A DNA stretch of 64,000 nt. Origin: Proteiniphilum saccharofermentans (lineage in GTDB: Bacteria > Bacteroidota > Bacteroidia > Bacteroidales > Dysgonomonadaceae). Under the pieces are notes generated by a model, which did not search any database, was not told the DNA's origin, and saw only the letters and a program-made list of their open reading frames with translations. A program made the position numbers and the translations under genes. This document shows, one piece after another, positions 2,490 to 20,204 of this stretch. Within the stretch, counting starts at the first letter, position 1. The number at the start of each line of letters is the position of its first letter. Location of the stretch: positions 3,472,001 through 3,536,000 of the forward strand of contig NZ_LT605205.1 in the NCBI RefSeq assembly GCF_900095135.1. Reading direction: 5' to 3'.

Positions 2490-3398
2490 TTATTTTTGCA
2501 TTTTATCAAACATGACGATAATACGTTCCAGATCTTCCGGAGAATCGAAAGGGATCGTAATCTTACCCTTGCCACGTTTGTTATAACTGAACTGCACATC
2601 GGTCTGGAAATAGGCAGAAAGATGTTGTTTTAACGCATCAAAATCATCTGGCGATTGTTGTCTCGAAGTTGATTTCCCGGTTTTTGGCTTACGGCTACCG
2701 ACATCTTTTAGTTGCTGGATAGGCGCTCCTTCGTCATAATCTTTCACCATTGACTCCACTTTCCGCACTGACAACCCTTCTTCGAGGATCAGGTTGTAGA
2801 GGGAGAGTTGCGCTACCGGATCGTTCATGGTGATCAATGCACGCGCATGCCCCATGTCAATTTTTTTGTTTTTTACTCCCATCTGTACTTCCGCCGGAAG
2901 CTTCAACAGGCGCAGGTAATTGGTGACAGTCGCACGCTTCTTACCCACTCTTTCGCTCAACTGTTCCTGTGTCAGGGAAAGGGTATCGATGAGATTCTGG
3001 TATGCCAGGGCGATTTCTATAGAGTTGAGATCTTCACGTTGAATATTTTCAATCAGCGCCATCTCCATCATCTCATCATTGTCGGCCGTCTTGATATAAG
3101 CCGGGATAGAAGACAATCCTGCCATCTGAGAGGCACGGTAACGACGCTCACCCGCAATGATCTGGTAAGTATCGTCATCGAGTTTCCTTAAGGTGACAGG
3201 TTGAATAACACCGATCGATTTAATGGAGGCGGACAACTCCCTCAATCCCTCTTCATCGAATGCCCTACGCGGTTGGTCAGGGTTGGGGACAATCTTATCG
3301 AGTTCCACCTCACTAATGGAAGAAGAGCCTTGTGTTTCACCGTCGTTAAAGGTGATCAACGCATCCAGTCCTCGTCCTAATGCATTCTTTTTCGCCAT
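2490..3398 (-). CDS. parB: ParB/Spo0J chromosome-partitioning protein (CTPase DNA clamp)
   Basis: 302 residues, normal for chromosomal ParB. The order is the N-terminal peptide KNALGRGLDALI that contacts ParA, the ParB/sulfiredoxin-like CTP-binding fold at about residues 28-120 with the box GERRYRAS, the helix-turn-helix at about 125-200 that reads parS (EQLSERVGKKRATVTNYLRLLKLP), and a C-terminal dimerisation domain after a polar linker. It acts with ParA upstream to segregate origins and load SMC. The gene is separated from parA by 332 bp of tandem hairpins, unlike the usual tight parAB arrangement, and a TAnnTTTG box just upstream suggests its own promoter. I found no full parS palindrome in the window. 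Confidence 0.97.
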   Translation of the reverse strand: MAKKNALGRGLDALITFNDGETQGSSSISEVELDKIVPNPDQPRRAFDEEGLRELSASIKSIGVIQPVTLRKLDDDTYQIIAGERRYRASQMAGLSSIPAYIKTADNDEMMEMALIENIQREDLNSIEIALAYQNLIDTLSLTQEQLSERVGKKRATVTNYLRLLKLPAEVQMGVKNKKIDMGHARALITMNDPVAQLSLYNLILEEGLSVRKVESMVKDYDEGAPIQQLKDVGSRKPKTGKSTSRQQSPDDFDALKQHLSAYFQTDVQFSYNKRGKGKITIPFDSPEDLERIIVMFDKMQK

Positions 3399-3426: not shown

Positions 3427-3430
3427 GTGA

Positions 3431-3720
3431 ACATTTTCGTTAAGCAAGAGCAGAACAAATAAATTTGTTTTGTCGAGCGCAGAAAATGTCTAATTTTAAT
3501 GAACTATTCTGTTAAGCCAAATGCACAGAGCCAAGCTTGCTTGAGTTATGTCATAGCGAAGAATAGTCTGATGAAATCGAACTATTTCGTTAAGCGAATA
3601 CATAGTCAAAACAAGTTTTGCCTCTGTTGAGCGTAGAAATAGTCTAATGTAATTGAACGTTTTCGTTATGTCATATGTGCAAAAGACAGGGAAACTGTCT
3701 TTTGCCATGACGAGAAAAAG
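3431..3720. repeat. Tandem array of four two-stem hairpin units between parA and parB
   Basis: Four units of about 75 bp share internal motifs near CGTTAAGC on the left and GTCGAGCGCAGA on the right, but have different matching stems. Outer stems: ACATTTTC 3431-3438 with GAAAATGT 3482-3489; ACTATTC 3503-3509 with GAATAGT 3561-3567; ACTATTTC 3581-3588 with GAAATAGT 3636-3643; ACGTTTTC near 3657, weakly paired with GAAAAAGT-type sequence near 3714. Inner stems: 3451-3460 with 3463-3472; CAAGC 3532-3536 with GCTTG 3539-3543; CAAAAC 3607-3612 with GTTTTG 3615-3620; and an 11-bp perfect stem 3679-3689 with 3695-3705. Stems change in step between units while the internal-loop sequences stay constant. 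Related copies lie near 13567 and 20045. Confidence 0.8.
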
Positions 3721-3730
3721 TAGAAAAATT

Positions 3731-4492
3731 TCAATTTTTTTCGATCAACTCTTGTGCCAGTTGTATATGATTTGTCGCCCCGCGGGAACCGGCATCGTAC
3801 ATAAGTGCCGGCTTGGCATGGCTCTGTGATTCACTGAGTGTAATGTTACGCTGAATAACTGTAGTGAATACCAACTCTTTGAAATGATGTTTTACCTCTT
3901 CGTATATCTGATTATGAAGACGCAGACGAGAGTCATACATAGTGAGTACAAAACCCTCTATTTCAAGCTTGGTATTCAGTTTCGATTTGATGATCTTTAT
4001 CGTATTAAGCAACTTACTCAACCCTTCAAGGGCAAAATATTCGCATTGTACGGGTATCAATACCGAATCGGCAGCAGTAAGCGCATTGACCGTAATGATA
4101 CCCAACGACGGCGAGCAATCGATCAGGATAAAATCATACTGCCCTCTTACCGGATGCAAAAGATCCCTGAGCCTTTTTTCCCTGTTCTCCATCTGCACCA
4201 TCTCCAATTCCGCACCTACCAGATTGATATGGGACGAGATAATATCGATATTTTCAAATGGAGTATTCTGCACCGCCTCTGCGGGGGTACATTTACCGAT
4301 CAACCCTTCATAAATAGTATTTGCAGCTTTTTTAATATCAATACCCAAACCGGAGGAGGCGTTCGCCTGCGGGTCGGCATCTACCACCAACACCTTTTTT
4401 TCCAACGCGGCAAGTGATGCCGCAAGATTAATCGTAGTTGTGGTCTTGCCCACCCCTCCCTTCTGATTTGCCAGAGCAATGATTCTTCCCAT
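3731..4492 (-). CDS. parA: ParA/Soj chromosome-partitioning ATPase
   Basis: 253 residues, a standard Soj-type deviant Walker ATPase. The deviant P-loop KGGVGKTTTTINLA at about residues 10-23 carries the signature Lys; ALEKKVLVVDADPQ is the Walker A' region, and FILIDCSPSLG is the Walker B-like strand. It forms ATP-dependent dimers on the nucleoid that are released by ParB. It is the first gene of the parA-parB-DUF5683-mltD group and lies downstream of, and co-directional with, the radical SAM gene that ends at 4619. Nothing is missing from the family signatures. Confidence 0.97.
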   Translation of the reverse strand: MGRIIALANQKGGVGKTTTTINLAASLAALEKKVLVVDADPQANASSGLGIDIKKAANTIYEGLIGKCTPAEAVQNTPFENIDIISSHINLVGAELEMVQMENREKRLRDLLHPVRGQYDFILIDCSPSLGIITVNALTAADSVLIPVQCEYFALEGLSKLLNTIKIIKSKLNTKLEIEGFVLTMYDSRLRLHNQIYEEVKHHFKELVFTTVIQRNITLSESQSHAKPALMYDAGSRGATNHIQLAQELIEKN

Positions 4493-4618: not shown

Positions 4619-5950
4619 CTATTCCCATATAAAATCGATATCTTTTTCGTATTTACCCAATAGGTTATCTTTCTGAAAGAAAAACTCTTCTTCTCCGAAA
4701 GCCGGCTTGAGTTCATCGAACCAGGTAGCCTTTTTATCGTATTGGGCAAAGAAAGGAATATCCACTAAATTAGGATTACGGCACTGAAGGAAGCGAAGCG
4801 CAAACACCTTCTCACCTCTCACTTCCGCCACACCCAACACCTGAATTTTTCCGGGATTAGCACTCATACTGGGACCACGGACAGTCCGGCAGATACCACT
4901 CACATTACGGTAAGCCTTCCTGAAAACATTCCATGCTTTTTCAAGCGGCACCTCGAAAAAAGTCTTGGAACCTGTATCCCGTGCAACAAACATATAATAA
5001 GGGATCAATCCCTGCCTGACCTGCTCTTTCCACATATTCGCCCACACCTTCGGATCATCGTTAATATGACGCAACAAAGGCGATTGGGTTCTGATCTGCG
5101 CACCGGTATTAAGTATCCTCTCAATAGCCTGTTTCACCGCATCGGTAGAGAGCTCTACCGGATGATTAAAATGTCCCTGAAAAGCAAGGTGCTTTCCTGC
5201 TTTCTTCACCTTCTCGAATAAGCGTAACATGTCATCGGCATCTTTGTCTGTCAGAAACCGGTAAGGCCAGTAAGCTAACGTCTTAGATCCTATACGGATA
5301 TTACGGATATGTGAAAATTCCTTTGTCAGTAGCGGTTCGATATAGGCCGACATGATACTTGCTTTCGCTGTAAGCGGATCGCCCCCTGTAAAAAGGACAT
5401 CCGACACCTTGGGATGCTTCAACAGATATTTATGGAGTAGATCTGCCTCTTTCATCGCAAATTTCAGCTCATTCATGCCGGAGAACTGCGGCCAGCGGAA
5501 ACAGAAAGTACAATAAGCGTGACATGTCTGCCCCTGACTGGGAAAGAAGAGCACCGTCTCGCGGTATTTATGTTGCATACCATGCAATTTTATCCCGTCT
5601 ACCATCGGCACATTATGTTCCTGTCCTGCCGGATTGGGATTCAGCTTCATCCTGATATCATAAACTTTCTGCTTTAATCCTGCCTCATCATTTGCATCGA
5701 TCAATTTTTTCACCTGCGCATAATGGGTTTTCGATAGCATCTCTTCCCGGGGAAAAGTCAGTGTGAAGATGGGATCTTCCGGTACATTACTCCAGTCGAT
5801 CAACTCTTCCACCACATAGTTGTTCGCCTTAAAAGGCAGTACCCGACCCACCACTCCAATCGCTTCCCGTTCCTGATCGGACAGGGCACTCAGTTGGGGC
5901 AGATCATTATAGTTACGCAAAATGAAATTTCTATACTTTTTATTTTCCAT
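4619..5950 (-). CDS. KamA-family (lysine 2,3-aminomutase-like) radical SAM/PLP protein
   Basis: 443-residue radical SAM protein. The iron-sulfur motif CHAYCTFC (Cys143, Cys147, Cys150) has the CX3CX2C spacing; DVLFTGGDPL is the SAM-binding GGD(P) motif; and the C-terminal SMSANPGKIQVLG occupies the place where aminomutases hold the PLP lysine, usually in a GGGGK context. Known relatives migrate an amino group from C2 to C3 of lysine or glutamate, or modify EF-P (EpmB). Two features differ from classical KAM as I remember it: no GGGGK, and an Arg where the substrate-binding Asp usually precedes the PLP loop, so lysine may not be the substrate. It is a single gene with a long 5' region; neighbours give no pathway clue. 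Confidence 0.8.
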   Translation of the reverse strand: MENKKYRNFILRNYNDLPQLSALSDQEREAIGVVGRVLPFKANNYVVEELIDWSNVPEDPIFTLTFPREEMLSKTHYAQVKKLIDANDEAGLKQKVYDIRMKLNPNPAGQEHNVPMVDGIKLHGMQHKYRETVLFFPSQGQTCHAYCTFCFRWPQFSGMNELKFAMKEADLLHKYLLKHPKVSDVLFTGGDPLTAKASIMSAYIEPLLTKEFSHIRNIRIGSKTLAYWPYRFLTDKDADDMLRLFEKVKKAGKHLAFQGHFNHPVELSTDAVKQAIERILNTGAQIRTQSPLLRHINDDPKVWANMWKEQVRQGLIPYYMFVARDTGSKTFFEVPLEKAWNVFRKAYRNVSGICRTVRGPSMSANPGKIQVLGVAEVRGEKVFALRFLQCRNPNLVDIPFFAQYDKKATWFDELKPAFGEEEFFFQKDNLLGKYEKDIDFIWE

Positions 5951-12523: not shown

Positions 12524-13579
12524 ATGGATACTTTTACACAAAACGCGGTTGAACTGTTAAGGAAACTGGTTTCTATCCAATCATTTTCCGGAGAGGAGCA
12601 TCTGCGGAGCAATTTTCTGACGGAATATTTCAATGAAAAAGGGATTTCCACAGAGCGTATCGGCAATAACCTGATTGTCCGTCAACCCCATCACGACGTA
12701 TCGAAACCGACGCTGATGATGAATTCGCATCTCGATACTGTTCGACCGAATACCGGATATACTTTCGATCCGTTTAGCCCACCCCACTCCAATTCACATG
12801 TTTACGGGTTGGGAAGCAATGATGCGGGAGCCAGTGTGGTTACTCTGCTGCAGACATTCTTATATTTCTACGAAAAGGAACTACCTGTTAATCTCTTACT
12901 GGCTTTGTCCGCGGAAGAGGAAAACTCCGGTCCGAATGGAATGACGTTGCTTTGGCAGAAACTCTCGGGCGAAGTGGATATGGCTATTATCGGAGAACCA
13001 ACCGGTATGAGAGCAGCCATAGCCGAAAGAGGATTACTGGTGATCGACGGGGAAGCGAAGGGGGTGAGCGGTCATGCAGCCCGTAACGAGGGAGTAAACG
13101 CACTCTATATTGCACTGGACGATATCGCCGTCCTAAGATCGATGAAGTTCGACAAAATATCACCCACGATGGGAGAGGTAAAACTAACCGTCACGCAGAT
13201 CAATTCGGGCACACAACACAATGTGGTTCCGGACCGGTGCAGTTTTGTGGTGGATATCCGTCCGACGGAAATGTATACCAACAGCGAGATCATGGAGATC
13301 CTGCAACCGAAAGTAAAAAGCGAACTGAAAGCACGTTCGCTTACCAATCGGAGCTCAGCTACACCGACTGATCACCTGTTAATGCAATGCGTACAACAAC
13401 TCGGTATTGAAAGCTATACCTCCCCGACCACATCCGACTGGATGAGGGTCACCTGCCCTGCCCTGAAAATGGGGCCTGGGGAATCAGCACGTTCCCACCG
13501 CCCCGATGAGTTCGTATTGATAGATGAACTGAAACAGGGTATCGAAGGATACATCCGTTTTATAGAACGTTTTCGTTAA
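12524..13579 (+). CDS. argE: M20-family N-acylornithine/N-acylcitrulline deacylase
   Basis: 351 residues. Zinc-dependent M20 hydrolase removing the acyl group late in arginine synthesis. Metal-site motifs: MNSHLDTV, GLGSNDAGAS, LSAEEENSG with the catalytic Glu, and IGEPTG; the lid domain follows, and the terminal GPGESARSHRPDEF carries the last His ligand. With a succinylornithine transcarbamylase upstream, the natural substrate is expected to be N-succinylcitrulline, not N-acetylornithine. The last codons (GAACGTTTTCGTTAA) are also the left edge of a hairpin repeat, which therefore supplies the stop codon. Confidence 0.92.
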   Translation: MDTFTQNAVELLRKLVSIQSFSGEEHLRSNFLTEYFNEKGISTERIGNNLIVRQPHHDVSKPTLMMNSHLDTVRPNTGYTFDPFSPPHSNSHVYGLGSNDAGASVVTLLQTFLYFYEKELPVNLLLALSAEEENSGPNGMTLLWQKLSGEVDMAIIGEPTGMRAAIAERGLLVIDGEAKGVSGHAARNEGVNALYIALDDIAVLRSMKFDKISPTMGEVKLTVTQINSGTQHNVVPDRCSFVVDIRPTEMYTNSEIMEILQPKVKSELKARSLTNRSSATPTDHLLMQCVQQLGIESYTSPTTSDWMRVTCPALKMGPGESARSHRPDEFVLIDELKQGIEGYIRFIERFR

Positions 13580-13695
13580 TCTAAAATAACGGTTAAGCGA
13601 GAGCAGTGTCAAGCTTGCTTGACACATTGCCGAGCGATAGTTATTTATCAAAATGAGCAGAGCCAAGTTTGGTTGAGTTATGCGAGGGCAAGTGA
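13567..13695. repeat. Hairpin-repeat element between argE and argH
   Basis: Second locus of the family seen at 3431-3720. Outer stem AATAAC (13585-13590) with GTTATT (13640-13645); conserved internal segments GGTTAAGCGA and CCGAGCGATA; inner perfect 9-bp stem GTGTCAAGC (13606-13614) with GCTTGACAC (13617-13625). A degenerate second unit (GAGCCAAGTTTGGTTGAG, near 13660) follows, and a partial left edge overlaps the argE stop codon. Here the element reads the same way as the genes; at parA-parB it reads opposite to them. Confidence 0.75.
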
Positions 13696-13725
13696 AAATT
13701 AATAAAATAACATTATCTAAAAGAT

Positions 13726-19979: not shown

Positions 19980-20044
19980 CGGGAAATATTGGATATTCTG
20001 AAATCGTATCCCGATAGGGGTCAAAGAACCAAAACATACATTTA

Positions 20045-20187
20045 ACTTTTTCGTTGGGCCAAATGAACAGGGATCAAGTTTACTTGAATGTTTTTGATAA
20101 GCGAGTACAGAGTCAAAACAAGTTTTGACTCTGTCGAGCGCAGAAAACAGCTAAGTTTACTTAAATTCTTCCATGACCGGAAAAAGT
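20045..20187. repeat. Nested hairpin-repeat element upstream of pta
   Basis: Third locus of the hairpin family. Outermost stem ACTTTTTC (20045-20052) with GAAAAAGT (20180-20187); nested second outer stem TGTTTT (20089-20094) with AAAACA (20144-20149); innermost perfect 12-bp stem CAGAGTCAAAAC (20108-20119) with GTTTTGACTCTG (20122-20133). The shared internal-loop motifs GATAAGCGAG and TCGAGCGCAG are present. One unit appears inserted inside another. Confidence 0.78.
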
Positions 20188-20204
20188 CTAACTATTATTG
20201 AATA

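Follow-up and report, generated by a model that had tools for sequence, protein, structure and literature searches.

Between the chromosome-segregation genes parA and parB of Proteiniphilum saccharofermentans lies a run of hairpins, and the question raised by this locus is what these hairpins are and how they came to be there. The window analysed is a stretch of 64 000 nucleotides (contig NZ_LT605205.1, positions 3,472,001 to 3,536,000, forward strand); coordinates refer to it unless a genome or locus is named. An earlier note on this DNA had described four hairpins with co-varying stems at 3431-3720 and had offered a mobile REP-like element as one explanation, beside a structured RNA and a protein-binding cruciform. 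The genome of origin (G000) is a single contig of 4,414,963 bp. The genus set comprised 37 genomes (G000-G036), this one included.

Hairpin units between parA and parB

Four hairpin units were placed in the gap with a covariance model (cmsearch), head-to-tail and all on the plus strand, at 3429-3731. The flanking genes were assigned by Pfam.

2490..3398, minus strand: parB, left flanking gene (Pfam ParB_N, HTH_ParB, ParB_C)
3429..3499, plus strand: hairpin unit 1, loop type B (cmsearch 68.7 bits; RNA fold z -3.5; outer stem 3431-3438/3482-3489)
3501..3577, plus strand: hairpin unit 2, loop type A (cmsearch 85.8 bits; RNA fold z -1.5; outer stem 3503-3510/3560-3567)
3579..3653, plus strand: hairpin unit 3, loop type B (cmsearch 77.7 bits; RNA fold z -1.75; outer stem 3581-3588/3636-3643)
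3655..3731, plus strand: hairpin unit 4, divergent (cmsearch 47.5 bits; RNA fold z -5.3; inner stem 3679-3689/3695-3705, 11 bp)
3731..4492, minus strand: parA, right flanking gene (Pfam AAA_31, CbiA)

The array amid the parAB locus was thus recovered with four model units between the two genes; its place agreed with the earlier description and its extent was slightly longer. The outer stems proposed there were present at the same positions (in unit 1 they read ACATTTTC/GAAAATGT), as was the 11-bp stem of unit 4. Near-constant internal sequences, which had been claimed for all four units, were found in part: units 1 and 3 were alike (GTTAAGC ... GAGCGnAGA), unit 2 was of another type (GTTAAGC ... 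ATAGCGAAGA) and unit 4 was divergent. The linkers differed among the units, and unit 4 abutted the 3′ end of parA.

When single units were folded as RNA, only units 1 and 4 were clearly better than shuffles. DNA parameters applied to the plus strand gave a weaker fold for units 1-3 (z -2.2, -0.5 and -1.2) and a similar one for unit 4. Since units 2 and 3 alone fold little better than shuffles, it is the family as a whole that supports the fold.

Copies in the window and in the genome

Two additional copies were found in the window.

13582..13648, plus strand: variant or degenerate copy (cmsearch 26.8 bits, E 0.0012; inner hairpin folds)
20086..20160, plus strand: fifth copy (cmsearch 60.6 bits)

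The copy at 20086..20160 was apparently inserted into an older one, whose putative halves lie at about 20043-20085 and 20162-20196, and that at 13582..13648 apparently sits within an older one that begins near 13566. At both places, 13.56 and 20.04 kb, the inner hairpins fold; the rejoined outer copies folded no better than shuffles (49/300 and 91/300 as good). A second type of hairpin (stem ATAAC/GTTAT, loop GGTTAAGCGAG ... CGAGCGATA) was observed within a copy of the main element at 13566-13700. The same composite occurred at G000 3566540-3566670 and in L013 from 1501, as if it had spread as one.

The 10-base core TTCGTTAAGC, with one mismatch allowed, was not enriched in the window (five matches, 4.2 expected), although over the whole genome, and when the full unit was used, enrichment was visible. 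A core pattern of 17 positions, 14 of them fixed, had 36 matches in the genome and none for the reversed control. The covariance model, built from 19 own-genome copies, gave at least 99 matches at E 0.01 or better (150 of 2054 candidates scored). These were spread over 49 plus-strand and 50 minus-strand matches, at 89 places (45 plus, 44 minus). The unit starts with (G)AAC and continues with an outer stem of about 8 bp, a near-constant internal loop, an inner stem and a short linker such as CTAATGTAAT. In several copies (L004, L009, L018, L024, L029) an insert of about 29 nt (TTGAAAATCGAGGAGCGAAGGCGACTC) precedes the right arm; a related 29-nt unit stands in tandem at G000 3583445, and the number of units there differs in G021.

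Covariation was assessed at two depths. Among the 19 own-genome copies, 8 of the 16 predicted pairs had double changes. A wider set (145 matches from 90 chosen loci, 129 distinct rows) had them in 14 of 16 pairs; in this alignment, which was fitted to the structure, 97.6% of cells paired (82.9% when shuffled), and the covariation score was 0.433 against 0.162 in shuffles, a signal lost when the partners were slid. In an alignment-free test, from which one short unit of the 129 was dropped, the left arm paired perfectly (7 nt) within the last 30 nt of its own unit in 102 of 128 units; with swapped partners the mean was 34 and the maximum 46 of 128. That paired changes keep the fold and not the letters therefore holds for the family, above controls and with the unaligned test in agreement. 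The earlier note would have been overturned had neither further copies nor covariation been found; both were found.

These data bear on the possibility that the unit is a structured RNA, or a regulatory or terminator hairpin, kept for a function in mRNA. Such a role would suit the strong fold, the covariation and the location of most copies between ORFs (26 of 27 own-genome loci by crude ORF calling, counted on 27 of the 30 loci L031-L060 with L045, L055 and L057 omitted as repeated views of arrays). Against it, the own-genome loci showed no preference in gene orientation by the same crude calling (++ 12, -- 8, +- 3, -+ 3), no Rfam family matched at its gathering score (two weak hits, E 1.8 and 2.9), presence varies between close genomes, and copies also occur inside coding sequence. 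We regard this as the least probable of the accounts weighed here. One own-genome copy (L059, 1501-1580) lay inside an open frame of 825 codons, where an in-frame protein insertion is possible.

Occupied and empty sites, junctions and arrays

The parB and parA locus was read in 30 of the 37 genus genomes. Besides the own genome, G010 had the array (91% identity across the stretch), and the site was without a copy in all 28 other genomes read (nhmmer). Among the seven genomes without the locus, six have their parA and parB matches at most 32 nt apart and G025 has no parAB match. In G021 (P. acetatigenes), whose genes here are 94-96% identical, the junction of the empty site reads TTAGTGAACTTTTTC. 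Comparison of 400 kb of the own genome with 400 kb of G021 gave additional filled and empty pairs in both directions, 8 copy groups being excluded for lack of flanks; for example, a variant copy in the own genome faces AATTGAAAATGG in G021, and some G021 copies have no own counterpart. These presence/absence comparisons suggest that the unit has moved.

Junctions were taken from 27 own-genome loci, which gave 31 distinct ones (4 of them array-internal; the parAB array is not among them). The right junction lay before GAA in 29 of 31 and before GAAC in 16 of 31, on a background of 4.1% and 0.75% in the 400 kb around them and of 6.5% and 0.5% in the left flanks. The two junctions without GAA end in a 29-nt insert. 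In the wider set the rule was weaker (92 of 129), linkers being different in other lineages. The left end was GAAC in 24 and CAAC in 5 of the 31 units, a constancy that is partly built in because the seeds were chosen by GAAC.

The fourth base to the right of the junction was free (GAAA, GAAT or GAAG in 13 of 31), and the ends are thus not accounted for by a duplication of 4 nt. No target-site duplication of fixed length was seen, left and right tetranucleotides differing in 19 of the 29 own-genome GAA junctions; an overlap of 3 nt may nevertheless exist. This speaks against a miniature element (MITE) of a DDE transposon. Some targets resembled the left end of the element further (GAACTATTTC, GAACGTTTTC), which suggests self-targeting, though older copies may have left some of these sequences behind.

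Head-to-tail arrays of 2 to 5 units were found in G010, G013, G019 and G030. Their linkers mostly agreed within an array and some units were identical; in G013, identical tandem units occurred at two places. Possible origins of the arrays are insertion before a copy, rolling-circle readthrough and unequal exchange. In the G019/G030 set, related hairpins were observed in pairs 48-66 nt apart, on opposite strands in L158 (12355-12553) and on the same strand in L159 (11098-11313), and singly in L152 (6944-7021). The pairs are perhaps a longer composite element.

Distribution beyond the genome

Matches were found in 33 of the 37 genus genomes, the own genome included, at 0 to at least 77 per genome, and in none of the 24 genomes of other genera compared alongside. 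With at most 12 candidates scored per genome, at least 15 of 393 genomes and at least 13 of 207 genera of the order had matches, own included; of the 14 other carriers, 10 had one match each. At the level of the phylum and with the same number scored, at least 2 of 395 genomes had matches, the own genome and one from another order.

The element is also borne by phages and plasmids. In IMG/VR, 5 of 75 core-bearing stretches held 7 model matches, and insertions in phage contigs followed GGAAC. In L321, L322 and L352 the copy stands after ATCGGAAC, inside what by reading seems to be one and the same short ORF. The L352 phage contig was seen to hold three copies of the start of this ORF (MAKVKYYAKENS...), at about 2215-2390, 3490-3640 and 4995-5120, with unrelated genes between them; two have the hairpin and one has part of it. 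One copy each was present in 24 plasmid records from Bacteroides, Parabacteroides and Phocaeicola. In plasmid L453 the copy lies inside a gene resembling one that related plasmids annotate as an IS1380-type transposase; where three related copies of this gene lack the hairpin, they read GAAC or GGAC at the site. Record MT837256 of the phage collection has the same insertion and surroundings as L453.

A variant hairpin was observed in L379 and L380 (genomes G405 and G368), directly behind the variable region of an apparent diversity-generating retroelement (DGR). The neighbours in L380 are, by Pfam, an Lcl_C protein, bAvd and a reverse transcriptase. A separate small hairpin behind the variable region, which we take to be of the usual DGR kind, is present at both loci, and the variant copies are therefore read as insertions.

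No title or abstract describing the repeat was found in a literature search that lay outside subscription journals and supplements. Among the matches listed for a 10-mer of the repeat, the papers were unrelated by title, and two longer strings were absent from them.

Search for a mover protein and comparison with known systems

No mover protein was found for the hairpin element. Copy counts in the genus set are based on at most 77 candidates scored per genome, and the association statistics ignore relatedness. Six genomes had more than 70 matches (G000, G007, G010, G019, G021 and G030). The 367 ORFs near copies were clustered and inspected by eye, and none was recognisable as a mobile-element protein; each cluster with at least three members was either one locus viewed repeatedly or made up of ordinary genes.

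The nearest known system is the REP/REPIN repeat moved by a TnpA-REP transposase (RAYT). Like REPs, the unit is small, structured, lineage-limited, high-copy (at least 99 matches) and mostly intergenic (26 of 27 loci), with tandem clusters and an occasional coding insertion. It differs in being longer, in having two stems around a constant internal loop and a GAA(C) junction, and in lacking a RAYT gene in the genome. The tetranucleotide GT[AG]G, which marks the foot of REP hairpins (PMC6006769), was not found; the foot of the unit is GAAC / CTAA, or TTAG on the other strand. Linkage to a RAYT, a check proposed in the earlier note, came out negative. PF01797 (Y1/RAYT) was absent from the own genome and present in 5 of the 37 genus genomes, and no hairpin was found at 8 PF01797 loci of the genus or at 30 from other element-bearing genomes (best E 0.5). 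Among the high-copy genomes, G000, G007, G019, G021 and G030 had no PF01797 match and G010 a partial one (50 of 121 positions).

These results also weigh on the view that the units are relics of a RAYT/REP system, spread by a Y1 protein that was then lost from the own genome and most high-copy relatives, so that the arrays now change by recombination alone. Size and distribution are REP-like, the TTAG next to the foot on the opposite strand resembles the REP guide GTAG, and all five Y1-bearing genus genomes carry copies (14 to 71; trend not significant, p 0.075). PF01797 was found in 10 of the 14 element-bearing genomes of other genera. Yet the five Y1 proteins typed (two from G012, three from other genera) all passed the IS200 cut-off, and the matches of four of them to the REP-transposase model stayed below its cut-off. 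The five high-copy genomes without PF01797, the 38 loci without a hairpin and the identical tandem units, which suggest recent spread, also speak against relics. A lost RAYT is thus a doubtful explanation, with perhaps one chance in a few of being right.

Members of IS200/IS605 and their non-autonomous derivatives share with the unit a hairpin substrate, a short conserved flank on one side and the lack of a clear 4-nt target duplication. The unit differs in being one hairpin and not two ends, in having no linked Y1 gene and in showing no strand bias. With Y1 elements, one replication strand is often preferred. Orientation relative to genes and to replication, which the earlier note had asked to be mapped, was unbiased on both counts; for replication the best half-split was 54 of 89 places (shuffle mean 53.2, p 0.4).

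A miniature derivative of an IS91-type element, moved in trans by a Y2 rolling-circle protein, was also weighed. In IS801 (PMC3189936), the left end is GAAC, targets are GAAC, GGAC, CAAG and CGAC, one-ended miniature fragments exist and action is in trans. The unit has a similar end rule, with a GAAC left end and a GAAC-type target beside its right end; trans action would be a further shared trait, and its arrays would follow from rolling-circle readthrough. Its fourth target base is freer than among those IS801 targets. Moreover, PF04986 (Y2) occurred in 7 of 37 genus genomes and in 0 of the 6 high-copy ones, with no association with copy number (p 0.9), and the ends of the genus IS91 copies that were read had nothing in common with the unit (model matches there only at E 4.2). 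An IS91 derivative is therefore improbable.

BrickBuilt MITEs of Porphyromonas gingivalis are likewise intergenic tandem repeats of the Bacteroidales, whereas they consist of 23-nt repeats with a leader and a tail and have inverted-repeat ends (PMC4596501). Additional literature used for comparison was PMC3733652 and PMC8266576.

In integron attC sites the R′ box GTTRRRY pairs with RYYYAAC. The unit does contain GTTAAGC, but with GTTAA placed in the internal loop and without a visible RYYYAAC partner. The integron integrase model TIGR02249 had no match over its cut-off in the 37 genomes, general tyrosine recombinases scoring below it, and an attC site was rejected on these grounds. Y1, Y2 and integron integrase were all rejected as drivers, as they do not follow copy number.

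One protein family did follow it. PF00078 (RVT_1) was found in 17 of the 37 genus genomes (16 over cut-off), and the median copy number was 21 with it and 6 without (p 0.0008, relatedness ignored). All six genomes with more than 70 copies had a match, if sometimes a weak one, whereas the family was missing from the four without any copy (G005, G008, G033 and G036). This association points to an RNA route instead of an HUH nuclease: the unit would be transcribed, and a group II intron reverse transcriptase would make, in trans, a DNA copy of that RNA at GAA sites. The strong RNA fold of units 1 and 4 would fit, and the best matches of all eight reverse transcriptases typed were group II intron maturases (six over cut-off); five high-copy genomes supplied five of these proteins. 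Copy number and PF00078 both correlate with genome size, though (Spearman 0.53 and 0.62; partial rank correlation left 0.26), so that size accounts for much of the association, and the link among the three perhaps reflects a general load of mobile elements. G023 has 8 RT matches and 2 copies, G004 has 6 and 1, and G019, with at least 77 copies, has an 81-codon RT scrap below cut-off. None of 20 RT loci had a hairpin, and we know of no case in which such an enzyme moves unrelated hairpins in trans. We consider this route very unlikely.

Proposed mechanism and significance

That the unit is a structured, REP-like and mobile-looking element is well supported by sequence comparison: copy number, covariation, empty sites and the fixed junction all favour the mobile REP-like option of the earlier note. 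Going further, we think it somewhat probable that the array in the window represents four copies of a non-autonomous, REP-like mobile DNA hairpin of about 71-78 nt, moved in trans by an HUH-type protein. A nuclease of this type is proposed because hairpin and junction recall IS801/IS91 and REP/IS200. The protein would recognise the element as a folded strand, by way of its constant loop, and, in the manner of Y1 or Y2 HUH nucleases, would join the right end of the element to a GAA(C) target. As the left end is itself GAAC, a copy can serve as target for the next, and insertion before an old copy, or rolling-circle readthrough, would give head-to-tail arrays. No host function would be needed, and the gap between parA and parB would be one tolerated site among about ninety. 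Against a Y1 version of this HUH model stands the expected strand bias, which was not seen (45 plus, 44 minus).

The element lacks features that define the REP/RAYT, IS91 and integron families and is therefore filed as a REP-like non-autonomous variant and not as a member. More tentatively, and with the balance rather against it, it may represent a new class: a mobile hairpin of Bacteroidales, their phages and plasmids, recognised by its constant loop, inserting before GAA(C), self-targeting, and moved by a protein that is neither Y1, Y2 nor integron integrase.

Because copy number ranges from 0 to at least 77 among relatives, the mover can be sought by simply contrasting their gene contents. 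The family also offers a test of whether REP-like repeats can spread without a RAYT. If the proposed reading is right, these mobile, self-targeting hairpins form a family not yet described in Bacteroidales, borne by phages and plasmids, that alters the gaps between genes; here, the altered gap would fall within the chromosome-segregation operon.
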